Shown here one piece after another: positions 39,613 to 61,287 of a DNA stretch of 64,000 nt; positions within the stretch are counted from its first letter, which is position 1, and each line of letters opens with the position of its first letter. The position numbers and the translations under genes are program-made. The stretch covers positions 17,222,851 to 17,286,850 of the forward strand of contig NC_079877.1 in assembly GCF_029227915.1 (NCBI RefSeq), written 5' to 3'. Source of the DNA: Hydractinia symbiolongicarpus. Lineage: Eukaryota; Cnidaria; Hydrozoa; Anthoathecata; Hydractiniidae. The notes below the pieces were generated by a model. It saw only the letters and a list, made by a program, of their open reading frames with translations. It did not search any database and had not been told where the DNA came from.

Positions 39613-42600
39613 TTACTGTTTACTAAATCCTGGCTCTTTCTCGCTATGCACACTATTCTGCAGCGACGCTAACCTGGGAAGATTTAGTGAGTTCCCGCTC
39701 GTAATCTCTCCTCCGCTTAGCGAATTTCTACTTGCAATCTCTCCTCCGTTTACGCATGCATGGTTAGGTTTTAACATCCGTTGGTATTGTTGCTGAGTTA
39801 ATAAGACTAAAGTTTGTTGAAGTTGTATAATCAAAGAATCTTTTTGTCGCGAAGACTGCGCTAGTTCTTCTTTTAGGCTGTTTATATCGTTTTTCAGTTG
39901 GTCTGGAAATAAAACAGACAACAAAGATTACTTGATAGAAAAGTGATGGGTAGAAAGGTGCGCACAAATTTTGTACTAAAATTACCTAACCATACCGTGA
40001 ATCCACATCCAATCCCTGACTTATTTTTTATCACCCAAACGATTTTACTTTTCGTAATAAAGTAAGAGGTTGCTTATTTGGCCAAAAAAGATTAATTTTA
40101 TTTTTTCAACACATATCGAGCACTTAAGGTTTTGATTTCTTAGAAGTTGCAAACATAAACAAAACTCTATCGATACTTCAAAAATATAAATACAAGTTGT
40201 TATAACTTTACCGATAACAGACATCAGTCCGTCAAGTTTTTCCTCCATTCTTTTTATTTCATCATCTAGACATATAAAAAGTATGTTAGTTACCAGCAGA
40301 AACTGAGATTGTTGATAACATTTACAACATAAGATTACCCACTTGAAGCAGGTGTAACTGGCGTTTGACACATACTATCTTCCATCGTGGAATGATCTAG
40401 AAAGCACCCAAGCAAATTAAAGATAAAAATCAACGTCGCTGTGTTGTGAAATTTGAAAAGCAAAAGCAAAAAGAAATTCTATTAGCAAAAAATGCTAAGG
40501 TCCACGGATACAACAGCAGTATTATTATGGATACGATCCTAAAAAAAGTGTGATAACGCATTACATTTGACCTAATCCTCAATCACATGACACTTTTTTC
40601 AGTAAAAGTGGACACGCATTTTTGACTATGGCCAACTATTTGCCTTTAATTGGAAGAGATAGGGTAATTAGTGTTTTAACTTTGATTATTACTGATAAGC
40701 CACAAGATATTACCAGTAATTTCATCTTTTTTAAGATTTTACTGATATTTCATTAGAAATTACTGGATATTACCGAGAAAACATATATTATAAACTTGGT
40801 GAGGGGTTCAAGTCCTGAAAGGTACAAAAAACCTTAATTCCCTAATTTTGATGGTTTTTGCACTAAAGTAAACTTCTAATTATCCTTCATGAAACACACG
40901 CTTTTCCTTCAAGACCCTCAGCCTCGCTTGTTGTTTAGCTGTTGCCTAAATATCCCAAGTGAAGTAACCAATTACTTCCAACCTTGTTCCCAGGATTATC
41001 TCCAACACGCTTATATCTGCTTTTTCCTCCCCTGTTAAGAGTCTGGTATAAAGCGTGAAAGAAAGAAAAAGCCTCGGGAATGCGTTTAAACTATTTTTAT
41101 CCTATGTGGAACCTTACATGTAAAGATGCTACAAAAGCCCATGGTTAATTTATCGTTATTGTTGTTTAAAGTTTAGTTTTTAACTTGTCTATCTGAGCCT
41201 GGCCTGTTGCTTATTAGTTGCTTAAATTTCATGAAATTTCAGCCTTGTGTTGCTTATAAAAAAAGCGTGTATCTCAAGCTTGGAAAAAGCTATAGTAAAT
41301 ACTACTATTTGCATATTTCTTAAAATATTAATTTTGCAGATTTTTAAAGCCTAGTATTGTACATGAAGCAGTTTTTTAATATCCCCTTTTCTCGTAAAGC
41401 TACTAAAGAACTTAATTGAAAAAATTAAGTGTCAGAAATAAAGTAACCTATAAGATTTGTTTTAGATTGTTTAGCAATAAAACAGTTTACTCTACACTGA
41501 CCTGTAAATGAAGCGATCTTGCTTAGCTTAAATGTCTGCTCTATAACGACATCACTAAAGTCGCCTTGTCTATCTTCTATATTAAAGACAGGATACGTCA
41601 CATCGAGGTAGTTGTCTGCCAGACCGACACCATAAATATATTTTCCTTCCACCTCATTCTTCATCACTATGGAAGGGAATGCGAGCTCTAATATTTGGTA
41701 TATTTTAGCGTAGGTGACACTTCCTAAGCCTTGCTTTAAGATGTCTGTAATGGTGGAAAACCTTTCACAGTGCTCGGTTGACTTGGCTGTAAGTATTTTT
41801 TTCACCCTAAACAAAACTGTGACGATTCACATGCATGGAAAGAAAAGAAAGAGGATATATAGAGTACAACAACATAAATGTATTGAGTGTCATCATTTTG
41901 AAGATTTTCTGCCAGTTAGGGTATTTAGAGATGAAGCACGATTTTAATGCATAATTTTATTCTTACGCCTTCGAATGTTACAGGTTGAAAAAAAACCTAC
42001 CATGCTGTAGCCTTTTCCAGCCACTGATCACGAGGTTTATATTGTGGCATTATTTCCACCCCTTTAACAGTTGCAAGACCGTCTCGTTTTCGATAGAAAA
42101 TATCTGGAAAAGCTTTTCTCACCAATTGCAAGGCTGCTTTTTCAGTTATTACTTTACCAATCTTTTTACAAAGAACGTTTTTCAGGTCAATAAGTTTTTC
42201 ACGATGACAATCGTTTTTGTATAGAATGCTTTGTAGCCTGAAATAAAAAGGAAAAAATCTTTTCCTTGTTCTTTTTTTACGGCCCTATTGAACATATGTG
42301 AAAAGGTCTAAAAAGATTTTGTCTATAGCGATCACTAAGTCAGTAGAGTATCTGTTATACTAGACAGGTGTCCGCAATTACCAGAAAAGGTTTTGTTAAC
42401 ATTGGTGGAAAAGCAGGAGAAGCTTAATTAAAGGTAGATGGTTAAATTAAAAAAAATTGATAAAGAGTAGAAAAATGCTAAAAGTATCACTGTATTACAA
42501 GTGAAAAGAAAATTTACTTCATTTTTTTTCTTTTCTGAGTTTAGTATCTAATTTTTCGTTTAAGCCCCAAAATATGTCTGCTACAGAAGAATGTGTGCTA

Positions 42601-45600
42601 GTCTGTCCTAGAGAGGTTGTAAATATGATCTGAACAAACTGTCTATAACGAGGTGTCTCTGACATAATTCAGATAGAATAAATTAGAATAGAATAATAAA
42701 AACCTACCAATAAACCAGCTCTTGTTCTTCTTCATTTATAACTGGTTTTGGGAGTGCAGTGCCCCTGACCTTGACAGGAGTAAATTTGACATTATTGCGA
42801 ACGGAATCATGAATAAATTGTAGTCCAACATAAAAAGCGTTCCTGTCAAATGTTTTGCGCACAACACGAGGGAAGACACACTTTATAGCAGCCATGCAGT
42901 TCTCAATGGAAACCTTACCAACATATTGATGAAGAGCCGCATAAACCATACTGCATTTTTCCTTAGCAGCATCCTTTTCTTGGATATTTGAGCGCAACCT
43001 ATTATTCAAAATATTATGATTTATAGTCAGTTTTGTAAAGACGATACTGTATTTGAGATTGCTTGTAGTTATTAGAACATAATACACAAGCAAACACACA
43101 CACATGCTATGAAGTATGAATAAACAAGAAAACACAGGCTGTCTATATTTAGAAGTTTTTTCATCATGAAGCACTATATTTCTGCTATGCAAAGGCTGAG
43201 TGATTGTCAACATATAGATCACAATGAGTTTGGAATGAAGAAAACAAATATATGGAAAGTGAATAAAGTCAAAAAACATTTAGCAAGGCAAGGCAAGAAA
43301 CAATTTTCTTTTTAAAAAAGTATCCACATATCCTTTACATAAGCAATAAAATGATGGTGACTTAGCTTTCAAATATAGGTAGATTAAACATGAATGCAAT
43401 ATACCATTCACAAGCATTTTCTAACCAAATTTTCCTGCTATTTTCTGCAGTTGTGACTTCTTTCTCTGGAAGGCTAATCCCACAATACCATCGTAATCGA
43501 TCTGACCTTCTTGTATAGACGTTGGGAAAAGCCCTTCTAACATGGCCTCCAATGCTGTTCTGTTTTACATGACCAAGTTCTTTACTAGCTATATCAAAAA
43601 GGGTGCGGCAGGACACGCTTCCAAATTTGTCTTCCTTAAATCGCTTTCTTAACCTGGAAAATAAAGTGAAAATAAAACTTTTATATTTAAAACTTTGATA
43701 GAAAATCTCAATCAGGTGCCATAAAAGGTTGCAAGTAAAAGTTTTAATAAAAAGTATCTATATAATAATACGCCACTTCTGTCTGTCTGTGACTTTTGCA
43801 AAGTGGATTATATTCTTCACAATTTTCTTTAACAAATTCTATAAAACATCGCCTATAAAATTGTTCTGTAATTTACCAAACTTTAACGCTAAAATAGTAT
43901 TGACGTCAAAGGAAAGTTAATTAAGATTAGTGAAGCCATTACAGTGCACCTAATATTTTGAGGCCAAATAACTTGGAAACGAGTTGGTGACGTCAATGTT
44001 TTTTAACCGCGTGGGTAACTAGGGACCACCTGGGACCAACTTGGGTAATTTTCCAAACCTGGGTCCCCAAATCCGTTTCGGAATGAACGGGTTTATGACG
44101 TCATAAAAAACCTTTAAACCACAATATTTACGTAACCCTTTGTCAAAAGTACACGATCCTATACATTTTCTTGATCAGCGTTTCAAGATCTATACGAGGG
44201 AGGCAACAGGTACATGAATTTCTGAAAAAAATTTTTTTGTGTTTTCACGGGCCTTTGCTGACGTCAGCACAATTTTTAAACACTTATATCTCTTTTTGTG
44301 TTCCTCGAAAACATATCATCCTACACATTATTTTGATCAGCGTGATTCAACCTCTACACATTACAATAAAATAATAAAATAAATTTCCCTAACTTTTTTG
44401 GGATCTTCACTGCTGACGTCAGCAAAACATCTAAAACAACCTATTTTTCTATTGCCCATCTGCCTAAGTGGATTTCTCCACGGGCCTTATCGACTAGTAT
44501 ATAATAATAAGCTGTTTTCCACAAACTAAGGCTATTTTATTCATCAGATGGACATAAATCTGCCTCAAAATCTTTGAAGGATAGCAGTTAAAGATTTATT
44601 TTTTCATAGTGTGCTCTCAAGCTTCTAAATTTGAATAGAAAACTTTCAATACTTACAGACTTTTCTATTAACTAGCTGCATACTTTTACTGCCTGATTCT
44701 ATTAAGCACTGATCCCTGACTAAACTCTTAACAACCAAGGGAATTATTTAATGAGCTGACTTTGATATTGGCCAAAAAAAACAAAGAAATACAAATGTGT
44801 TAACACCTAATTTATTATACTATTTCCAGCTGCATACTGCATCCAGCTCACATATCATGAATTATAATAAACTCATTTATGGTCACTAGAATTCTAGCAT
44901 TTCAATGTACAATACTGCAACTAATCATCACATAACTCTCTCACAGTAACCCACCAAATCTTTTTTGATATCCTGTCTAGTCAACTCAGGTAACACCTTA
45001 CTTGACTACGCAGGAACAATAAAGAATCTCCTATAACCTTTAGTAAACAGCTTCACTTTACCCCCAATGCTGTAAAAAACACTGTTTAAAAAACCTTAGT
45101 TGCTTAAACTTGCATAATAATTTTAAGATAACTTTACTGCTTTGTAAAAACAACTAACATTCGTTATTTTCATCTTGATATATTTTGCCATTCACTCTAA
45201 ACCAAACAAATGTGCTATAACTTAACTTATTAAACTAACTTTCCTTGCTTGTAAAGTTACCTTCCATCATTTCGTTCAAAATTTTCTCCCACATCATTCT
45301 GATTTGGTATGCATGCTAATCTGTTTAAACAGCATACAGCATATAATGTGCTGTACAACAAACCTTAGAAGTATTCATTTTTGCAGACATTTTGGCTGAA
45401 TTCATTTTAACTTGCATCATGATAAATAATACTCACAAAAAATTTATGACATTTTTCCAGAGTAAATAAAATCCCAATTTGAAGAAAAAACACTAAACGT
45501 ATAGTCAGTAAATTATGGGAATGTGCCTACCATAACATAATTTTCTCCTCGCTAGGTACATTGGGGATGAACCGTAAACCTAGATAATATATCTCTTCCT

Positions 45601-48600
45601 TGTTATTACTTTGTTGAGCTTGCAGATCAGGAAATGTTGCAACCAAACATTTGTGAACAGCTGCTGCACTGTGACCAGGCATCAATTCATTTACCACCTG
45701 AGTTATATCGCTTAGACTCTCACTGTGTCCATCATTGAGTTCCAAAAGAGATTTAAGGCTATAAAAAAAGTAAGGAATGTCCTGAGTACTTATTTTGCGG
45801 CACTAAATTCTTGAAAATAAATTCCAGAAAATTTATTTTAATTAAATCTTTAATAAAAACTTATCTTTTATACTGCTATATTATACTAAATATTAAATTC
45901 ATTTCTACTGAAAAAATGTTATTCTTGGTAGGGATACAGGCTTGGTCAGGAGAATTTACCCCTGTGAGCACTAAATCGCCTACGTAAATTAATATACGTA
46001 AGAAACCATGTGTGATCAAAAAAGCAAATTAGTTTGGTGGAGTGATCAAAAGTCTAAAATATGTACATTTTTTCTGACGTTTTTCAACAGCTGCAAAGGA
46101 TCGTCAAATTTGGGTAGTGTTTGGGGTAGTAGTTTTATTCTACTGACCAGATAATTATGTGTTCTCCTTTGCTGCTGACTTCTAGTTTTATAGATAGAAA
46201 CCATCCTAATGATTCGCATTGAAAGTTTTTAATTAGCGAACATTTTTAAATGTAAATAACTTGAAAACAAGACTTTCCCCAATGAAGGTCCTTTTAACTG
46301 TGTGATCAACTCCACAGTCTCTCATTTCAAAAGGGAAGTGGCATGGGGCATCTGGTCTGCAGAATTATTATGCAAAATTTAAATGTGGCTGAATTACGTG
46401 TTGAAAAGTGAAACATAGAGGAAAGAGCTGTTATATGTGGATTCCCACCTAAAACTAAGTTTTAGTTGTATTTCTAACATGGGTAACATTAGTAACCAGC
46501 ATAAGTTTATTAACCTTTCCGCACCGCTGTATTTTACTTTTCTCAGTACCCGGCACCGCTGTATTTTTAAAAATTTCATGCGGCTTACTAAAACTTTCAT
46601 AAAAGTTTAACTGCATGTCCTAAAGTAAAAAATGACCCCATTCTGTAAAGTAGAATAGTTCCTCTAACAAAATTATACAAGAAAAGCTAATAAAAACAAG
46701 TGGAAGGTTAGGTACCAATCGTCGAGCACTTGCGAAAAAAGAGTATAATAGATTTCAAAGCATTTATTGATGCACAAACCCACACCACACACAGCACACC
46801 AATGTCGGGTATCTTTTCGCACTCCAAGTTTGCTGCAATAAACACATTTCCTTTGAGATCTTGATTTGTTAGCTGTAGATGGTACTGGTGAAATAAAATT
46901 CCGTTCAACAAGCCTCAACATATTTGCTTCTACAGGATCCGCATTGGGACTGGTAGAAGATGAAGAGCCTGCAGATGCGTGAAACGTGATAATTTCCCCA
47001 ATAAGAATGGTACAGAAGATCGATTAGATGATCGATTTTGCTTTGTGGGTTCATCTTCTTCCAAAGAATGAAACTATTATACACTGAGATGTCAATAAAC
47101 AACTCTGCTAACTTGCAGTACCATTTCACTCTTCTCCTTTGTGTGCTATACAGTATTAACATGTGACTGACTAGATCGACACCACCCATCGTTTTATTAT
47201 AATCCAATATGACATCCGGTTTTTGAATATCTACCCCGGTATTACGATCTATCTTATTTGAATCCAATAATTTAAATGCATGGACAGTTGACAACATGCC
47301 AACATATTTCACCTTCTCTTTGTTTTGGTGACATCTTTCCATGGCATAACGCCAATATTACCCTCAAATTTCGCTTGCGGTGGTGAACCTCTCGCTGGCT
47401 TCCAAAACCAAAAATCATCGGGAGGTTAGCTTTTTTTCCATAAAGTTCCATAGCAGTCTGTATCATTCAGCAACAACGCTTCTGCCAACTCAGGTGAAGT
47501 GTAATAATTATCCAAGGTAACAGAATATCCCTTGTTGAGGTAGTCGTGAAGTAATGAGAGAACTACTTTTAAGAGACTTTTGTAGGTATCGAACGGTAAA
47601 TCAAGGTTGGCCGGTGGATTTGGATACTCTGTTGTTGCTCCTGAGTAAATAATAAAATTGAGTAAGTATTCACTTTGACTTTCACATAACATAAATACTT
47701 TGACACCATACCGTTCTCTTTTACTCAGAATATAAATGCGAAAACTCAATCGACCCTTCCAAAGCGAAAGGTACTCATCAATCGTGAAGTGCTCTGAGGG
47801 AGTATAATTTCCTTTGAATTTTGAAATCAAATGTTCAAGGAACAAGCAAGTTTTTTCAAACCGTCCACGAGATCTTCAGTTTCTGGATTAGTAAAGTGAA
47901 TTATTTTTCGCAACTGTTTGAACTGGTCTCTTCTTATAAGCCGACTGAATATCGGAGTCGAGAGAATGTGTTGACGACTCCAATATGAATGAATAGTTGG
48001 CTTATGATTCATCCCCATTAGCAGACAGCAACAAATATAGATCCATAATTCATCCCTGTCCGTGTCTTTCCAGAGGTTGAATAGAGATCTCCACTTATTG
48101 TTCATATGAGCTTGAACAGGATCATTCATTATAATATCAGCATTACTTGACTATGTCGTCAATAAGTTCATTTGTTATCAATTCTTTAAAGACACTAAAT
48201 GGACTTGTTCGGTCATCTGGATTAGTGTTTATATGCTCTCTTGATATAAAAGGAATCTTCCGCGAGGGCGTGCAGGGCTCACCCATGTATCTGGCTCCAT
48301 TGACAAGTCAGGCGTACTTTGCCCACGTCCAGGACCGCGTCCACGTCCACGCCCATGAGTACCATTGGGTCCACCACGAGTGCGAATCCCGCCTCCACGT
48401 GCACAGATGCTTCTTCCTTGTACGTATACGCTTCCGTGGGAATTCTACATCACTTTCTTCCGAAGAATTATCAGAGTAATTCACCATATTTGGAGTTTGA
48501 GTTGTTGTTTCAGCGTCTGACCGAGTTGTTGAAGAAGCGTCATCATTTGTTACTGCATAAGTTTGTACTGAATAGGAATCATTCAAGGATGCAGATGTTG

Positions 48601-51600
48601 AAATTGTTTCATCACGTTCATACTCAGACATCTCTCCATCATCTGAAGAAAAAGTCAAATTTGAATGTCTGGGTGATATTAGACAGGAAACGTCAGGATA
48701 GAGCATGGAATTCCTTATACTGAACCAAAAAAAGCATGTAAAAAATCACCAAAATACTTTCTGAGTCTAAATCATCCAAATAGTTTTGTATTTCTTCAGG
48801 CTCACAAAAAGCTCTTTTCTTTGTCACCATCTCAGAAATAGTTTTCGCGCTCAAAAAAAACAGTGAGACTCATTGCTTTATTTGTCTAAAATACAGACCC
48901 GCGCATTCCCGAAAATTGATGTAAATTGTACCCGAGTCATTCCTACGCGTAGATAAGAAGATAGAATTGGGAATAGGCCTGCGGTCCTGATATTATTCAA
49001 GTTTAAATATGAAAATTTACGTTGTACGTCCTTCGGTACTTGTGTTGGACGTACAACGTACGTCCTTCAGCGTAAAAAGGTTAATATTGAAACAAGAAAA
49101 AAATTTTCCATTCATGTAAAATGTTTAACAAAATGCTTTGTCTACAAGGAAGAGGTAACTTCATCAAGTGGAACCCATACTGATTATGGTGCACTCAAGA
49201 CGAAACATAACAACCACAAGAAGTTGTTTCACTAACATCTATACAAACATAAAATAAAGTTACCAAAATTCTTATGGCCTGATCCTGGTAAAGCATAGAA
49301 TATAGATGAGTTTTGAAATTTTTACAGAAAGGGACTGTTTTTTATATTTTTTGCTTGTGCATATCTGTGTGCATGTCAATTATTCTTGATGCAAAATCAA
49401 AACATTACATCCTGCTTCAACTCATCTATAAAATGCTATATTGAAGCATGCACCATCATTAGATCCATCATAAACTGTTGAACAGATTAATGTCAAAATG
49501 TCGCCATAGAAACAAATATTTATTATCAACTCTCAAATAAAATGAGAACCTATAGTCTAAATAAATGCATTTAATTACAAAATGAAACTTTAAGTTGCTA
49601 CTGTGATAGTGTTTTATTAAAGAAATAAAAGCATTTATCATTTAGATAAAATTCAATTCTTTTGGTTCATATTTTCAAGAAATAAACAGGGTTGCAATAT
49701 ATATATATAAATATATATTAAAAATTCTTCATAAAGTATGCACATGCATTCATTAATATACAATTACATATATTTTTAGGAATACAAAGTGCACTGAAAT
49801 CATTTCTTTAGCATTTCAGCATATGTTTCGTTGTTTAACTACAGTGATCTGTTGTTGGCATTGTTTTCAACACAAAATCACGACAGGATTCTAATTAGAA
49901 ATATAAAGCTCGTTCAAAAAAATTTGTTAACTGTAGAGAACAAAACCTCAGGCAACTTGAGGGTTTTCCACACTAAAATTATTGTAACTATACACTTCCT
50001 TTTAATCCCAGATAAATACAATAAGAGTGCTCAATTTCAAGAAATCAAACATTTTTTTATTCGGCTTGAAATCGATTAAAAAAGCAGTGTGCATTATTGT
50101 GGTGGCAAAGATTCTTTGTGAAAGGAAGAGTGAAATTTAAGTCTGAAATCTCTTGAAGTGTTTTTCCAGCATGCAACAGAAAGGAGAAAAAGAGATCTGC
50201 CAAAAACCTATAAAACAACAACTGTGTAAAGTTCTATAATATAGAATAACAAAAATTTTATTAGTCCTTTGCTTAATGTCTGTAATGTTTGGTTATTGTA
50301 TGGTCGAGTTATTAGTTAATTATTTGTAGTTTGAATCTGATTTCAATAATTAAATGTTACAAATGCTCGCCTATTTACTTTTTGTTAGTTCAACATTACA
50401 AACTGCAGCAATTCAAAAGCAACAAAGGAGTTACTTTGACAGATACCTTAAGCAGTCAAGCGACCATCCAATGGCAGTAGAGTGGTCACTGCGCTACCAT
50501 TGTAACAGTTGGCTATGCACAGAACATAAAAAAACCCTAGGCCTTTTTATGAACAGGGCATTTTAAATTTTACACATTTAACAGCTGATTTCTGTGAGAT
50601 AATATCATTGATGTTAATACACAGATTTGTTGTCCAGAATAGTATTTTTCATGCAAATTTAACCTTATTCTTCATGAAACATGATGTTGGTTTCAAATCT
50701 TTGAGTCATATTATGGAGTCAAAATTTTAAAAATTCCACTTTTTTTGCACCTGACCTTCCAACCATAAAAATATTTCTGGGAACAGCCTAAGTGTTCGCT
50801 GCTTAGCAGTTCACCATATCTTAGCTACTGATTGTCACTCGGGGAGAACTGATAGCTAGCCTGTAACAAGTGAGTCAGCAAATGTAGGATAATTATATGG
50901 TACATATACAGTATTTGATATTAATTACAGTATTTGATATTAATTATTTCTACCCTACAGTTATATTAATAATAGAAATCTTTTTTACTCAAATTTCCAC
51001 TTTTTCTTGCTAACTACAATCTCCCCATACCCATCTATATAGGTCCTATACAATGGCCTCTATGGCTCACTTCTCTTGTTAATAAAAACACTTCTCTTCT
51101 TAGTCAAAACACTTCTCTTCATTCCTCCGAAATTGTCTTTTCTGTTCAAAACACTTCTCTTTCAAAGTGAGAACACTTCTCTTCCATGAACACAAAAAAT
51201 TCCCAGACTCGATTAGGGTCCAGAATATTGATTGAGCTGGATTTTGAAAACTCACATTTTTGAATAAATGACCGACCACCCTCATCTCTAGGGTTTTTTG
51301 CCTTTTTGATATATAAGGGAGACAGCGAAATCCCATGAGACGACGTTGAATAAATGACATTGTTGTATCTGTTTAAGGCATTTGTTTATCTTTTTAAAGT
51401 GTTATACTTTACTTCTTATTTCTTTATTGTTCTGAACAAAATACGTATTATTTTAATCTAAAATCTCAGCCTGATATTCGTATAAAGTACAATCATTAAA
51501 AAGAAAAAGCCTGTAGTTTCCTTGGTGGACACTACCATGATTTTGAGGACTCTGTGCAGTCATTTATTTTGCCATTTATATATTGTGTCTTGATAAATAA

Positions 51601-54600
51601 AATAGCCTACTCTGCTACTAATCTGAATTGATTTGTGATATTATTTTAATGCACCTGCTACAATATAAAGCTGTTGGTAAATTGAGCATGTGTTAGCAAA
51701 GTATACTCTTGGGAAAAGTGAAAAAAATATACAGACCATGGGTGTAAAATTGCAGACCAGATTTTTAAACTTAGTTGTGAAAAGAAAGTTTGGGGCCACA
51801 TATCAAAATGCAGAAGAGAAGTGTGAGAATAAAAAAGAGAAGTGTTTGAATCATGAAAGAGAAGTGTTTTTAAATCGGAAGAGAAGTGAGCCATAGGGGC
51901 TATCGTAAGTTCACATTACAACTGTGCAAGATAATTAGCTGCATGAGCTATACCGCTAATTAGTCATAGATTGTATTTTCCAACAACGCACTATTCAGAT
52001 TTAAAAAAAATATGGGAAAGCTGTTAGTCAGTTGTGAAGAACACAAAGACACCTTAAAAATACAATTGATATATATTGAAAAATATTGTCTTCTCTACCA
52101 TATATATAATTAGCCATATAAGAGGCTAATTAGGCCACCCTCAAAAAAAATGATTGGCTAGCGTCAACAGACTTTAAACGCAAAATTTGAATCAGGGACT
52201 TAAAACTAAAACTTGTGCCTTTCTCTTTTCTGCACGGCAGAACCAACAAAATACATTTATCTTTACATTGAAACGATTTCCATACAATGAGTTATTGATA
52301 CGATTTTTTAAACGATGTTGAACTAATTAAACTTATATATAAATGTAAAATTATTGTTTCTCTTTCTTTTATTCAACACAACATCGATTATTATAAATAT
52401 CGTAAAACAGTTTTTCAAAACTAAAAATAAACAGTTTTTCTTAAAACTAAAAATTTCCTTAAAATGGAAAATATTGCGATGAAAAAAAATTTAAGAACAG
52501 TGATAGAAATGCTTTTTTAGATCGCATTTTAAAATATTAAGAACGAAGAAAAGTGATAGAAAAGCTTTGTTAGAGATTGTGTTTCAAAAGTTTAAGAACG
52601 AAAAGCAGCGATAGAAAAACGTACGCGACAGTTTTACGATGTAGAAATTTACCTACGTGACTGTGTATAGGCTTTATTAAGAGACCTTAATTAGATTAAT
52701 AATTTCCCTTATTCTTTTATGTTAAAAGAATGTAAAAGAAACACCTTGAAACGATTTTGAAATGATCTAAAATAAATATACTGAAACGATCATAATGATA
52801 CGATTTTGAAAGGAATTATGGTATGTGAAACGATTTCAAGTAAATATAATAAAACAATCTTGAAACGATTATGAAACGATTTTATTTTTTAATGAAACAA
52901 TTTACAAAATAGTGAAACAATTTCCATACAATCTGAAACGAGAACCTTAAACATTACCCTAAAATCGTTTCAAATTCGTATCACATGCTACGCTAATTAA
53001 AAAATGAAACGATTTGAAACAATTTTTTTTGAAACGATCTCAGAGACGATCCCAAATAGACCAAAGACAATTGATTTTCCACTTAGGGTGATAGTCCACT
53101 TTGATTGCAAAGCACTAGCTTAGCACTAGCTACATGATGATGTGTCACAGTCCACTGAAAAAGAAATGTGCCCACAAACCCAAACTGGTAGGAATTTAAC
53201 AAAATCATTGGTCAAAACAAGCAAAAAGAATGGAAACAATGTTGATTTTCATAATAGATGAATTTGGTTGTTTTGTGTGGCAGGAAAAAAGATAGGGGCG
53301 CTATTCTGCCCAGATTGCGAAAACGACCTGTTTACAACCGGGACAGCCGGATTATGTACGCACGGTCCGATTATGTTTTTTTTGCACTGGTTATGTCGTG
53401 GTGACCGGATTATGAACGCTGATATAAATAGCTGGGAGACAGGCTGTGATTGGCATTTTCTTCAAACTTTTGTAAATTAAACATTCTCTGGAAGATAGAA
53501 CACCCCTAAAAACCAGACATGGCGAAATAAAAAAAGTGTCGACGTAATTCCTAGTATAAACTACTCTTGTAGTAAATACATTTCAACATAATATACTTTG
53601 AAGCAACTAAATTTCCCGGAACCTAAATTATTCTGTTTGCAAGAATTAATTTTGGTGAAAAGTTATTTAGTATTTGCCACGAATGATATAAAAGCAGTCA
53701 GCCCTGATTATATTTGTTTTATTTAAGTCCTATAATTGTCGAATAAAATTTGACTGTCATACATAAGTCGGCCTGCCCCGATTATGTTCGTTCTATAATA
53801 AGTGAGAAATAATATTACACTGTCGTATATAAACTGCCCTGATTATGTTCCTTTTATAAGTGCCAAATAATATTTTTTGAGTAATAAGCCCGCCTGTCCC
53901 GATTATGTTGCCCTGATTATGTATTTTCTGACCTGTTCCTAACCGGGGCAAGCTGCCGTACTTAATCAGGTCAATGTTCATTATCCGGGCAGAACAGCGC
54001 TAGGTGAAGCAAAGTAATTACCAGTTTTTTTCTTTACACAAAGGCATTCTTATGACTTTTAACAAATTCAAATAAATCAGAAGGCATCAACCTGCACACT
54101 CAATATATAATAGTTTATAACCCGAACAATATCCCGTCAGAAGAAATCCACAGTAAAAGACTTTTTTTCACCAAATCCTAGCATCTTTTTTCCTGCCACA
54201 CAAATGCCAGAGCCAAGGAGCTTACTGCTAAAAAGTAAAACAAATGACGTCACACCGGAATTCATCTATTAAAACTTAAAATAGAAGCTAAAAAGTACAG
54301 CAGGCTTACATTAAAAACAAAGAACAAAATATAGCCATAGCTAGCTATAGCTGCCACTTAGGGTTTTTTTAATTTCTCAGGAAATAATTTCACCTGACCA
54401 ACTAACTTTTGCAATTAGAAATGAAGGTAACCAAACATATTTTTGAGTGTGACCTTTACTTACACCGTGCATTTAACCTGCATTGGCTACTGTCTTGTTA
54501 GGCAAATTATCAGTTCAGTTCAGACATATTTTTATGATTTGTTACCTACGAGAACTCAGAAAAATGGTTATAGTAATTACTTCGAAATAACAGTTAAATC

Positions 54601-54687
54601 ATCACCAGTACTATAGGTACTACTTTTTGCATCGTTTGGAGGAGAACGAGATTCTTTCTGATGGGCCTTTGCCCGGTCGTTGGCCAT
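39613..54687 (-). CDS. Tandem RFX-like winged-helix protein, 5 modules, 9 exons
   Basis: I know no named gene with this layout. Exons: 54687-54581 (tentative first exon), 45758-45531, 43653-43405, 42998-42708, 42237-42001, 41806-41502, 40396-40343, 40265-40212, 39902-39613; 1815 nt, 604 aa, all in phase. Exons 2-6 each encode one RFX-like winged-helix module (pattern: helix, S-x-x-x-[IV]..[FY]P, basic wing, Y-x-G-[ILV]). The best match to the RFX DNA-binding domain is module 2. Residues 490-545 form a Leu-rich coiled coil (EIKRMEEKLDGLMSVI, then LKEELAQ), so it probably dimerises. The tail has a short internal duplication (GGEIASRNSLS, GGEITSGNSLN). A nuclear DNA-binding regulator is inferred. 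The first exon (MANDRAKAHQKE) fits in phase but has a weak GTAATT donor and an 8.8-kb intron, so the true start could differ. Confidence 0.78.
41502..41806 (-). other. Winged-helix module 5 (exon)
   Basis: 101 codons, phase 2 in, phase 1 out. Core: TITDILKQGLGSVTYAKIYQ, LELAFPSIV and YIYGVGL. The wing position has NEVEG rather than the basic residues of RFX. A 45-residue acidic extension follows the fold before the coiled-coil exons. Confidence 0.75.
42001..42237 (-). other. Winged-helix module 4 (exon)
   Basis: 78 codons, phase 2 both sides. Core: DLKNVLCKKIGKVITEKAAL, VRKAFPDIFYRKRDG, VKGVEI. The basic RKR of the wing is kept, but the aromatic YxG of the last strand is reduced to VKG. It ends with WLEKATA then the split Trp codon, like module 2. 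Confidence 0.8.
42708..42998 (-). other. Winged-helix module 3 (exon)
   Basis: 96 codons, phase 2 both sides. Core: YAALHQYVGKVSIENCM, IKCVFPRVVRKTFDRN, FYVGLQFI. A linker of about 35 residues rich in Val and Pro follows before the split Trp. Confidence 0.8.
43405..43653 (-). other. Winged-helix module 2 (exon), closest to RFX
   Basis: 82 codons, phase 2 both sides. SCRTLFDIASKELG then SIGGHVRRAFPNVYTRRSD and WYCGISL line up with the RFX pattern (RSTLY, SFGKLIRxxF, RTRR, YYGLxI) without gaps over the recognition helix. Arg residues at the wing suggest retained DNA binding. Confidence 0.82.
43759..44509. mobile_element. Intronic element with four TGACGTCA palindromes
   Basis: It is flanked by an identical 12-bp TATATAATAATA at 43759-43770 and 44498-44509, perhaps a target duplication. 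Inside, TGACGTCA occurs at 43988, 44096, 44259 and 44414, and TTGATCAGCG near 44171 and 44333, so it is partly built of diverged 100-160-bp units. It is non-coding and lies in the intron upstream of module 2. Confidence 0.55.
45531..45758 (-). other. Winged-helix module 1 (exon)
   Basis: 75 full codons, phase 2 both sides. Core: DITQVVNELMPGHSAAAVHK, LVATFPDLQ, YYLGLRFIP. The wing is neutral (QAQQSNNKEE), so base contacts expected of RFX are missing. Confidence 0.75.
46510..49084 (-). mobile_element. piggyBac transposon with intact TTAA ends
   Basis: TTAA at 46510-46513 and 49081-49084 flank inverted ends reading TTAACCTTT. The left subterminal region has a duplicated GCACCGCTGTATTTT, and the right has repeated GTACGTCCTTC in a palindromic arrangement. 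The internal transposase is on the minus strand and is broken. It sits in intron 1 of the winged-helix gene, same orientation. Confidence 0.9.
46673..48830 (-). pseudogene. piggyBac transposase, frameshifted
   Basis: It starts at ATG 48830 (MVTKKRAFCEPEE), followed by an acidic Ser/Thr-rich N-terminus and an Arg-Gly-rich segment. The catalytic region keeps the three Asp contexts: FTIDEYLSLWKGR, VTLDNYYTSPELA and YNKTMGGVDLVSH. A C-terminal Cys/His-rich zinc motif (CVYCSKLG, HWCAVCGVGLC) follows. Several frameshifts and stops (near 48690, 48280, 47835, 47430, 47340 and 46910) split it into at least five frames, so no active enzyme is made. Confidence 0.9.
50825..52135. repeat. Composite TAATTAGC-type repeat hosting a second element
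   Basis: The left part (50825-51005) resembles 390-530. The right part (51905-52135) has several GATAATTAGC / GCTAATTAG motifs like those at 900-1000. A separate inverted-repeat element (51053-51903) lies between. It includes a small duplication of ACAGTATTTGATATTAATT at about 50908-50945. Confidence 0.4.
51053..51903. mobile_element. 851-bp MITE with 25-bp inverted ends and ACACTTCTCTT repeats
   Basis: The ends read ATGGCCTCTATGGCTCACTT (left) and, reversed, ATAGCCCCTATGGCTCACTT (right), continuing CTCTT. Five ACTTCTCTT copies lie inside the left end and four complementary AAGAGAAGT copies inside the right. The open frames here are low-complexity repeat translations. Confidence 0.75.
52265..53052. 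mobile_element. GAAACGAT-array element, copy B
   Basis: Short left array, then the core (about 52310-52610) shared with 19205-19490, then a GAAACGAT array (52740-53031), ending GAAACGATCTCAGAGACGATCC, the complement of the copy A terminus with one difference. It lies in intron 1 of the winged-helix gene. Confidence 0.7.
53298..53999. mobile_element. 702-bp MITE rich in CCCGATTATGTT motifs
   Basis: Inverted ends GCGCTATTCTGCCCAGAT and, reversed, GCGCTGTTCTGCCCGGAT. The interior has at least eight variants of CCGATTATGTT or CTGATTATGTT. A partial copy lies at 31333-31545. Confidence 0.75.
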
Positions 54688-55651: not shown

Positions 55652-58600
55652 TTAAACCGACGTCGCATCTATCTTGTCGATAATTTCCAATGGCGGAGTG
55701 GAAAAAAAATCTGACGTCACTTTGTATCGAGGATGAATTTCGTCAGTAGTCGTTGAACAAATGACGGATGAAATCTCGCTAATATCTAACGATTGATGAT
55801 TCAACCAAGCTTCTAACTGATGAAGGATTCCATCAACTTTCTGCACGGATATTTCTTGATTATTTTCCAGTAGCAAGCTTGGTGAGATGCTTCGTCTAAG
55901 AAACAAACGGCAAAAAGGGTAAAGCTGACAACGCAACCTTATGGAAATTGACAAGTTGTAGAAATAAGATGAAGATTTGAGAGATAATTACAAAGAGTGT
56001 ACACTAAACGTCAAGCCAACGCGTAAACTTTACATTCAACCCTCCACCCATGTCCTGAACGAGAAAATCAAAAAATCTAATGTTTAAGTATCGTCGATCT
56101 CTGGATGGAATAATAAGCACGTCTGCTCATGTGATACGCTTCTATTTTCCAAAAAAAAAAAATCTCGTATAAAATATTTAAATGTTAAAGGTTTTATTCT
56201 CTGTCTCCCAAGGTCGAATTGTACTTTTTGAGTCGCCCTGAAAATTGCAAATTATTGTGTTGCTTACAAAGTTTATTCTCCATTAGCACACAATTAAATT
56301 TCGAAATATCGAGAGAAGTTGGAGAAAGGAGTTGGAATAGATACAGCGTTGAAAATCTAGATTTTCAAAAGTACAGGGGTGGTCTCAAAACTTTTTAAAT
56401 TAACAAAATCAACATTCAACATGAATGCTTTGAACATATAGAACAAAAGATCTGTAATATAGCACATTTCAGATGAATGTGTACCTTAAATTGATAAGAC
56501 TAATTTTCCCGAGGTCAAAAAAGTGCATTTCGTAAAAAGATTTTTTGCGAATCAGTCAATTTCAGATATTTCGCGAATATTAATTTTCGCAAATTGGTCT
56601 ACCTTAAGGGTACATATTTTCGCAGGTGTTGAATTTTGCGGATGGGCAAAATGGTATTTTTCGTGGGTATTAAATTTCGCGGATCGAGATTCTCAAAATA
56701 TTGGCGCGCTTACTTAATTTCGTGGATGAGGTTTTGACTCAGTTTTTTTTTAAAAAAAATTTGGAATAACGGCGGAATGAACAGAAGAATATAAGGAATT
56801 CAATATTTTTTAAGGTTTTTTTTTGTTCATTCATTTGTTCATCATCAAAACATGCAAAGGCATTTCTGCAGAAATCAACATCAAAACTCGTAGAGAAATC
56901 TTTAAAAAAAAATTAAAATAAAAATTTCGCGGGAATTTTTTTCGCGTATTGACTATTTTTAGATTTGTTATTCTAGCACTCCACAATTTTCTTTTAATTT
57001 AGAATTTATCATATGCACTAAAGATATCCGCGAAAGTTTCAATGAAGCAGATAAACGTAATAAAGCTATAAAGTGTTCTTATTAAGGAAGAAGAAAGAGA
57101 AAAAACGAACAAAAATCAAATAATTTAACGAAGATTAATTTTAACGAGTGCGCTCTTTAAAGTAATTTCGCGAATTGACCTGTCCTGGGTTTTTGCGAAT
57201 ACAAATTTTCGCGAATATAAGTAAAATTTATGAGAGAAAGCAAACCTACCTGGCAACATCTTGTGCGATCACCTTCAATTTATTCTCCGTACAACTACAC
57301 GTACGCATTGCCTTCTGAAGAGAACAGACTTTTCTACGGTAACGATCTTCCAATTTCTGGTACGCGTTAGCCACCTTCTTTTGTTCTTCAAGTTTCTTCA
57401 GAAGCTTCCGTCTCTCGTGTTCAAATTCAAATTTCATTTCTTTAATTTTTGCAGCTAAAACGTCTTCCTCGTAATTTTCTTCCGGGTCGGTGTTATCTGT
57501 TTGTACGGCGGCGTCACATTTTTGAGACGCCAAACCCGACGTTAAATAAACAAATTGCTCGCGTGCGTTGTTGACGTTTATGTATGATGGTTCCACAATT
57601 ACAGTATCAACGGATGCTTTCTTCGGCTTTGGAAGAGTAGCAGGGGCGTTTTTTCGCCTGGGCGTGTGCGGTGTATTCGGTACAGACAGAAGTGCGCACT
57701 CGACAGGTTTCCCCTCGTCGTTAATCTTAGATATTTTTTCGTGAGACTTGTTATCGAAACTAGCGGAAGAGGAAAGATTTTGAGAGGATAAGTTTTGGGT
57801 CGACGTTCCGTGAGATTCGATCAGGTTGGCATCGTGGAAATCATCGAGACTGTAATTCGTTAATCCAATGGTGGTGTGTCTTTTCAAAGACATGGACTGT
57901 TTATTCTTAAGTTCTACAAGTGATGTCTTTCGTGGGTTTTCAAAAATATTGTCCAGCGCTTTTAAACTAGACGAAGCTCCCGCAGACACGCGCGCAATTT
58001 CTTGTTCGTGAATACGAATAAGATCTTTCAAGCTCATACTCACTGTTTTCGATAAATCATTGTGTGGTAAAACACAATCGCAGTTGGAAGAATGACTGCA
58101 GCGACGCTTTCGATGAACGTCGTGACAATACGCGTCGGTTTCAGAAAGGTTTCGTCTGCCCTTATTGTACTTATGTATATTGCCACTAGAGCTAGCACAG
58201 TCTGAAGTTTTTGCAGATTTAGAACAGGAAGATAGCACCTCTTGAACAGTTCGTTGTACGGGTAATGGTGGTCTTTCTGGTGGATCATCGCTTGATCCAG
58301 CGTTGTATAAATCGCCACAGTTGCTTTCATTGTTATTACAATCACTACGATCGAGATGGCCAACAGAATTATTTTTTGCTTCGCTGATATCGATATCATG
58401 CTCAAGCAGAGCCTGATTGTTTAATTTCTCCTCACTCTTTTCTGTGTTGTAACCACTTTCAGTTTTATTTAAACTGTTTCCCTTTAAAACATCTGTCTCA
58501 CTATAATTATTTGCATCTCTTTCCGGAAGTAAAGCTCGTTTTGGCCACGAGAAAGCCTTTACTTTCCGTATTAGAGGTGATATACGTCGTGCTGCTCCTT

Positions 58601-61287
58601 TCTTAGTGGCATTATCATCTGATAATCTTGTGGGCTCTGGTGCAGAGGACATGCGAACATGAAAGGGTTGAATTGGGCGTTTAGTTAAAGAGCCCGATAG
58701 TTCTCCTTTGTGTAGCGGTTTTGTGACAGTTAAAGGTGTATCCGTAAAGTTTTCTGGTGACAGACGGTTTTTACCCAAAATTGTACTACTGACTAAACCA
58801 TTGTTCTCTTCGGCAGTGCTAGCGTCTTTTTTATTAACACTTTTCAATAAGTACGAGTGACTTTCCACCGCCGACTTTGGCCTCACTTTTCTTGGTTTTA
58901 TAACAACGTCAGAAGCGCTAGTCGTTGTCTCCTGAGTTAAAAAGGGAGAGTCGAACTGCTGTCCCATCAGAGGTGAAGAAAGTCTTTTGCTCGGACTTCT
59001 GTTTTGAAGTTTTAGTTTTCTACGTCGTGGAAAGGTGTTCCCCTTGTCAGCAGAATAGTAATAATAGTTGACTGGCGTAGGTGTGTCATGCATCAATTCA
59101 CCTCCATCATCCGTGTAAATGTGTTCTTCATCTCTTGTCGTATACAGAGACTTTTTACTTACAAGTTGATCTAGCCGAGGACTATAACGACGACGCATCA
59201 AATTCGGCGAGTAATACCTTTTTCGGTCAATCCTTCCAAACTTGAAATTATCCAAAGATTTATCTTGGAAGGTTTGAATATGTTCCTCGGACCTATACCT
59301 TGGGAAGTAATCGGTAGAGTTCCATTCCTCGGGGTACACTGGCGAACTATAAGTTTCTACCGCGCTGCTCGATCTCAGCGACGACCACGAGTCTTCGTCC
59401 GGTGGAGGTTGGCGTGAACACTCGTGTTGGTGGACCAGCCACTTTTGCACGCGTTCAAAACTCTTTTCTTGCTCCAAAACAACGTTGTGACGCAATGAGT
59501 TCGTTGCAGCGAAGTATTGGTAATCAAACACCGGTCTAAAACAGGAATAACGTACGTGAGAAGGTATTAAAAATAACACGAGTGTCGTGGTCACATTACT
59601 TAACGCAAAGCCCTACTTAACAAGTACCCGTCTATAAACACCAACAAAAACACTTTCTATGCTCTTACGTTTGCTGTACGACCGAAAAAACTTTTAACAC
59701 ATCGAAACTTCAGCACAAGCGAAAGGAGTGAACTCTCAAGTTAAACATTATAATAGCTACGTATAGGGAAAAAATTACTTGCAAAATAGTCTAACCGCTT
59801 ATCGGTCGTTCTTTGCGCAAAACCAACAAAACTTCTTATAACTTCTGTTTTAACAGACTGGAGTTTAATCTTTTACTTAGCTGCAGAATATTTAATTTTT
59901 TCTCTCATACAAAAGCCATGCATGTGTATAATTTTTTTTCCATCTAATTGGATTTAAAGCTTAAAAAAATCTCCGCGATGGAGTGTTATTTTAATTGAAA
60001 TGATGAAGTGTTTATTCTAATTGAAAATGATATGAATGAACCCTTCAAAGGACACATTGTCAGTGCTGAATGGGGATGATTGAAACATATAACGTCGTAT
60101 TTCGTATGGTAAATCATTTTAAGAATAACTCTAGCTTAAAAGATCATGTAAATGTATCTGGGTCCCATTCTTTAATTAGAAGGAACACACCAACGCAACT
60201 CAATGTTTTGACTTTTTGTAAAAAAACTGTCACACAAAAGATAAAAATCCAAGTCATAATGCTAATTTAGATGTACGTTTTAGATCTCCACAAAAATTTA
60301 AAATAGGGTTGTAAAATTTTAAAAAAAGGTTTATAAAATGTATTCCCAACACAGCGTACATATTTTCACCCAGATCACATGAAAAAATATTACAATAAGG
60401 CATACTATTTGAATCTGGCGAATGATAAACTAATCAAAAAACCACACATGTACTCATCAAATGAAAACTTAAAGAGAGACGCAAGTGTCTAATTAAAATT
60501 AATTTAGACAATTAAGAAAGCGCAGACGCATGCATTCTTAGGGAAGTTTGTAAACAAAACTTCAAAGTGAATTTCCACCACTGAAAAAACAATCTGGGAC
60601 AGAACGGAACGGACAAATGTTTATAATTTCACCTTTTACTTATTCGTAACAAAAAAAACCCGAATTAGATGCGAACCTTTCACTACGATAGTCACCAAAT
60701 TATAGTCATGTGGAACCAGTTAAAAAAAGGTATGCACTTACACCTGCTTTGCTTGTTGTTGATAATATTTGTGTGCAATAAGATTTAGAATAGACAAATC
60801 TTGCTCGTCGTACGCTGATGTGTATGCAGATGTTGCCTGCTTGCCTTCCATATCATAAGCTAAAGAAAACATTAAAAATAACAACCAACGAAGTATCACA
60901 TTCAAAGGGTACTTCGAACAAGTGTTGTGTTTAAAAACAATTTGCAAGCGGTAAGCTTACCATAAGATAACCATTTGAAAGTTAATTTAAGTCGAGGCAA
61001 TAACAAACTTCAATTTGACTCAGGCTATAGTATATGCATTACAAGTATCTACAAGTGTTTAAAATGCAACCGTGAATGAACATAGGAAAGAGTGCTATGC
61101 AGTCAATGCATTTAAAGGAGAAACCAGTAATCTCGTTATGTACATTAAATCACTTCCTTAGAATTAAAAATTACGAGTGAAGCTAAATAAAACATTTAAA
61201 CTATGTGTTTCCTTGCACGTGAGTTGATATAACATAAATAATCCAGATGACAGATGACAGCTTATTACCTCTGGATACTTTAAACAT
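55652..61287 (-). CDS. Unrecognised 888-aa protein with C-terminal coiled coil, 4 exons
   Basis: I do not recognise this protein. Exons: 61287-61269 (6 codons, MFKVSR, strong GTAATA donor), 60859-60742, 59535-57250 (one 2.3-kb exon), 55895-55652; 2667 nt, in phase throughout. The N-terminal 90 residues look folded and conserved-like (LSILNLIAHKYYQQQ, FDYQYFAATNSLRHN, RVQKWLVHQHEC). Residues 90-740 are Ser/Arg/Asn-rich and probably disordered, with PxxP stretches (DDPPERPPLP, PNTPHTPRRK). Residues about 740-800 form a charged coiled coil (FEFEHERRKLLKKLEEQKK), and the last exon adds two short helices (VDGILHQLEAWL) and ends in DATSV. No signal peptide or membrane segment. A cytoskeletal or signalling scaffold is a guess. 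The tiny first exon is the least secure part. Confidence 0.82.
56505..57230. repeat. TTCGCGAA-motif element in the last intron of the 888-aa gene
   Basis: Variants of TTTCGCGAAT or TTTCGCGGAT occur about a dozen times in 56530-56730 and 56920-57220, on both sides of a plainer core. This fits a non-autonomous transposon with subterminal repeats. The ends were not determined. Confidence 0.5.

Follow-up and report, generated by a model that had tools for sequence, protein, structure and literature searches.

RFX factors, as described in the parts of the cited literature available here, carry one DNA-binding domain (DBD) each, which is joined by the dimerisation domains B, C and D in RFX1–4 and RFX6 and occurs alone in RFX5 and RFX7 (PMC2533330). 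RFX1 reads DNA chiefly through its wing, placed in the major groove, with helix 3 helping in the minor groove (PMC6212790, PMC4212688). Membership of the family has been defined by an identity of 40% or more across the whole DBD together with conservation of nine DNA-contacting residues, and ARID2, with 29% identity to RFX1, was excluded as an RFX factor (PMC2873420). The single-DBD layout given in the available part of PMC2533330 does not fit a gene found on the minus strand of a 64,000-nucleotide stretch of the Hydractinia symbiolongicarpus genome (NC_079877.1, positions 17,222,851 to 17,286,850, hereafter the window, to which unprefixed coordinates refer), for this gene has five RFX-like modules, M1–M5, ahead of a C-terminal coiled coil. 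Its product is, in our estimate, probably an RFX-derived protein that would assemble through the coiled coil and would bind DNA or chromatin multivalently.

The spliced gene (54687–39613) starts with a short exon, continues with the five module exons and a 54-nt linker exon and closes with two coiled-coil exons, all with GT–AG introns and compatible phases, as established by reading of the strand and scripted exon joining. The exons of M1 (45531–45758), M2 (43405–43653), M3 (42708–42998) and M4 (42001–42237; 237 nt) have phase 2 at both ends in Hydractinia, so that skipping or doubling any one of them preserves the frame, and the M5 exon, which includes a linker (41502–41806), runs from phase 2 to phase 1. 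A profile built from 21 module sequences, the five of the window included, found exactly five strong matches (68.6–80.8 bits) among the 1107 stop-to-stop frames of at least 30 aa in the window, the next scoring 7.0. When each module was left out of the profile in turn, the missing one was recovered at 14.2 to 43.1 bits; shuffled sequences peaked at 8.8 bits, and none of 2000–2500 reached the weakest true module. With hhalign, five of the ten module pairs gave probabilities of at least 86% (M4–M5 highest, 96.4%), and the remaining five ranged from 67.7% down to 4.0% (M1–M2). By these comparisons the five modules are diverged copies of each other, as an earlier note on this DNA, made from the letters alone, had proposed. 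The motif quoted in that note held in part: FP and a later G occur in all five window modules, and Y-x-G in three, M4 having VKG and M5 IYG.

A 28-sequence tree was also built; 21 of the 24 available module sequences were used here and in the profile (Clytia M1, M3 and M4 were excluded). All 21 modules fell on one side of a branch and the RFX and ARID2 domains on the other (support 95/84). M2, M3, M4 and M5 each clustered according to position and not to species (91/85, 94/94, 93/98 and 98/90, respectively), which makes it most likely that the duplications are older than the divergence of these hydrozoans; the M1 sequences formed no resolved group.

The likeness to RFX was evaluated first by profile. 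Scored whole, two of the five family proteins passed the curated Pfam cut-off of 27 bits for the RFX DNA-binding domain (PF02257), with 27.7 and 27.2 bits, and scores below it were obtained for the proteins P0005 (16.8) and P0003 (11.4), P0004 being unlisted. When the window modules were scored singly, one of the five matched, below the cut-off; M1, M4 and M5 align to the profile over 33–36 columns only. M2, which the earlier note had aligned with the RFX DBD, did prove to be the most RFX-like module by profile and is also the most basic, and M5 is the weakest match. No Pfam family other than PF02257 reached its cut-off, in a search that ran no dedicated models for the RFX B, C and D domains. 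Among about 1000 Protein Data Bank (PDB) chains aligned to the template-free models, the solved RFX5 and RFX1 domains ranked first, with a clear lead in Z for two models; the single-module M4 model likewise had RFX5 and RFX1 on top by VIA-align. The predicted structures thus place the modules in the RFX winged-helix fold. In 25 module-by-RFX comparisons against five RFX DBDs, identity with standard gap costs was 11–26% of the 72-residue domain (12–33% of aligned columns); with very loose gap costs it reached at most 35% of the domain, and more than 40% only when gapped columns were dropped. The corrected identity of PMC2873420 was approximated in this test rather than exactly reproduced, and the modules fail the rule of at least 40% given in the available part of that paper. 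For this reason the modules, judged by sequence, are RFX-like, as the ARID2 domain is, and are not RFX DBDs proper.

The wing and the charge of the modules bear on possible DNA binding. Whole-module net charge was −4 to −8 for M1, +6 to +9 for M2, +2 to +5 for M3, +5 to +8 for M4 and +1 to +7 for M5. The basic wing ascribed to all modules in the earlier note does not hold for M1, whose net charge over helix 3 and wing is 0 to −4 (four rows); over the same stretch M2 has +4 to +7 (all five rows) and M3 +2 to +4 (four rows). Several observations weigh against a DNA-binding protein and favour an RFX-derived scaffold that binds no DNA and uses its winged helices for protein–protein contacts, like the ESCRT-II or UFL1 arrays. 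None of the five window modules has the wing signature RRLGxRGxSKYH; the F-to-G stretch that holds the wing counts 17 residues (19 in M1; M4 counted by eye) against 21 in RFX, and is thus shorter by 2–4 residues in every window module; M1 is acidic and keeps PDLQAQQSN invariant in the five family proteins; and the Foldseek top rows for the whole model are tandem winged-helix proteins. The altered wing and the acidic M1 also weaken the earlier proposal of a regulator that reads DNA in the manner of a multi-finger protein. On the other side stand the positive helix 3 and wing of M2 and M3 and the motifs RRSDR (M2) and YRKR (M4), which are invariant in all five family proteins. The scaffold is a serious alternative that we nevertheless hold to be on the improbable side, and multivalent DNA or chromatin binding is preferred.

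Descent from an RFX gene is independently supported by the exon boundaries. In M2–M5 the exon starts within the codon of the tryptophan (W) at the head of the RFX fold, dividing it TG|G in phase 2. Other PF02257 matches in the Hydractinia genome comprised seven exons, assigned to five loci, four of them canonical RFX and one ARID2-like. Two of the four canonical loci (L004 and L005) begin their DBD exon at the same W codon and in the same phase, the acceptors being read by eye without transcripts. These split-W loci (L003–L006) lie at C3:13704401-13704728, near 13.70 Mb, and C15:1388468-1388733, near 1.39 Mb, and we presume them to be RFX4/6-like, a label given without comparison to RFX4/6 sequences. 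Candidate upstream exons ending in TG|gt precede both, picked visually among 15 and 13 possibilities. In the RFX1/2/3-like locus L001 (C2), which groups with human RFX1 at 98/87 in the tree, the intron lies two codons upstream of the W in phase 0; the position was thus read in three of the four canonical loci, L002 being the fourth. The ARID2-like locus L007, separate from the five-module gene, has no intron at the W and is read straight through it. Introns within the domain are seen by eye in three of the canonical loci, and the module exons have none. An intron position and phase in common with RFX genes, taken as the mark of descent from such a gene, is therefore seen for M2–M5, and the simplest history would be the loss of the inner introns from one RFX exon, followed by tandem duplication of that exon. 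As a side observation, intron position may mark RFX subfamilies, with phase 2 at the split W in two loci and phase 0 two codons upstream in L001.

This footprint bears on a second alternative, in which generic winged helices without RFX ancestry converged on the RFX form. The low identity to RFX and the short alignments of M1, M4 and M5 would suit such an origin, as would the finding that, among PDB sequences, the five-module profile has a match to RFX5 (E 0.40) that is no stronger than its match to MAGE-type chains (E 0.37), both being weak. The two family proteins above the Pfam cut-off speak against it, and the exon start shared with two Hydractinia RFX loci, together with the structure ranking, makes convergence decidedly unlikely. 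The RFX-like fold put forward in the earlier note is supported by the profile matches, the template-free models and this common exon start alike.

The exon chain itself agrees with public data. The best protein match, P0001 (Hydractinia symbiolongicarpus "uncharacterized protein LOC130636036 isoform X4"), agrees with the model in every residue (568 of 568) between the beginning of module 1 and the stop, which means that the chain is no artefact of the earlier reading; its five minus-strand module exons are confirmed by this match, the GT–AG sites and the fitting phases. The protein has 604 aa with the 54-nt linker exon (40343–40396; HSTMEDSMCQTPVTPASN), which is present in P0001 and can be omitted in frame, and 586 aa without it. 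Exon joining adds the first coiled-coil exon (40212–40265) and a second that includes the C-terminal tail (39613–39902; stop TAA at 39615–39613). The 604-aa model was correct from M1 onwards, and its start is one option only: the proposed first coding exon (54581–54687, MANDRAKAHQ...), predicted from splice signals with an ATG, a GT donor and a fitting phase-2 end, is used by none of the seven proteins returned in the homologue search. P0001 instead uses an alternative first coding exon (54464–54483, MQVKCTV), which also ends in phase 2 and, joined to the M1 exon, gives P0001 residues 1–20 exactly. The first intron, of 8.8 kb, contains piggyBac-type transposase pieces (46673–48150, minus strand), with PF13843 in three separate reading frames and zf-Tnp_2 below cut-off in a fourth. 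That the gene is a model artefact or a decaying pseudogene, as these transposase pieces and the unused first exon might hint, is scarcely credible given the identity with P0001 and the frame and layout kept in the Hydra and Clytia proteins.

The homologue search returned seven proteins from 6089 candidates. Five modules and the coiled coil are present in P0001, P0002, P0003 (Hydra vulgaris LOC100197387 isoform X3) and P0004, and P0005 from Clytia has four modules and ends after M4, so that it may be partial. P0006 and P0007, also isoforms of Hydra vulgaris LOC100197387, are each 79 residues shorter than P0003 and lack M4; P0007 equals P0003 minus exactly that module. Mean pairwise identity among the four full-length proteins was 0.54, 0.58, 0.44, 0.47 and 0.36 for M1–M5, respectively; the coiled coil had 0.53, compared with 0.16 in the linker and 0.25 in the tail. 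No named protein from outside Hydrozoa appeared in three protein searches, two of which missed known Hydra members. The five-module layout thus appears to be ancient and conserved in hydroids, Hydra and their kin; every named orthologue is hydrozoan, which supports the lineage restriction suggested earlier, and the misses make that restriction provisional. Elsewhere in the window lie a reverse transcriptase fragment (PF00078; 25145–25828, minus strand), an open frame of 302 aa that encodes a calcineurin-like metallophosphoesterase domain (PF00149; 32718–33626, plus strand) and one of 788 aa (57246–59612, minus strand), for which Pfam gave no match at E 0.001 and which is perhaps a long exon of another gene.

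Under the preferred reading of an RFX-derived, multivalent binder, the gene would have arisen by repeated duplication of one exon encoding an RFX-type winged helix, its source being an RFX gene in which the DBD exon starts within the codon of the first W (split TG|G in phase 2), and its product would have five winged-helix modules that have diverged, followed by the C-terminal coiled coil. The chains would assemble through that coiled coil; in its best register the C-terminal helix has hydrophobic residues at 12 of 18 a/d positions, a count reached by 167 of 10,000 shuffles. DNA or chromatin would be held by several weak modules, chiefly the basic M2–M4, and the acidic M1 may have turned into a protein-binding module. 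Skipping of phase-2 module exons, as in the Hydra proteins without M4, would alter the module number, possibly with functional effect. A bolder version, in which an oligomer held by the coiled coil would use its modules like a zinc-finger array to read a long, composite site on DNA, with a wing geometry unlike that of RFX1 and splicing setting the number of reading modules, is doubtful.

The kind of domain is already known; the five-fold architecture, the exon origin and the hydrozoan conservation appear to be new, and no description of them was found in the titles and abstract beginnings of the open-licence literature. A Hydractinia embryo study, in its available part, refers to predicted RFX members without identifying the five-module gene (PMC10368294). 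The gene, so far recorded in Hydrozoa only, is a clear example of exon duplication making a repeat array out of a winged helix and leaving an intron footprint that can be traced, and it provides a test of whether tandem winged helices can work as zinc-finger arrays. Gene knockout tools exist for Hydractinia and Hydra. Clytia, for which a single Rfx1/2/3 orthologue is described, is likewise open to gene knockout, according to the part of PMC6078951 available.

Compared with known systems, the gene stands nearest to the RFX factors (PF02257), perhaps to the RFX4/6/8 subfamily, with which it shares the modelled winged-helix fold, the FP before the wing, the W-L opening of M2–M4 (W-V in M5), the Y-x-G after the wing in three of the five window modules and, with two Hydractinia RFX loci, module exons that begin inside the W codon in phase 2. 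It differs from them in having five copies at 11–26% identity, a wing 2–4 residues shorter without RRLGxRGxSKYH, module exons without inner introns and a C-terminal coiled coil. With the PBAF subunit ARID2 it shares RFX-like sequence too diverged to pass the 40% rule; ARID2, however, is a much larger chromatin-remodelling subunit with one RFX-like domain, unlike the five-module gene. With TFIIIC, UFL1, STK19 and ESCRT-II it has in common several winged helices per chain; none of these families reached its cut-off in Pfam, and the whole-chain superposition on tandem winged-helix proteins is poor (rmsd 13–34 Å in the Foldseek top four rows).
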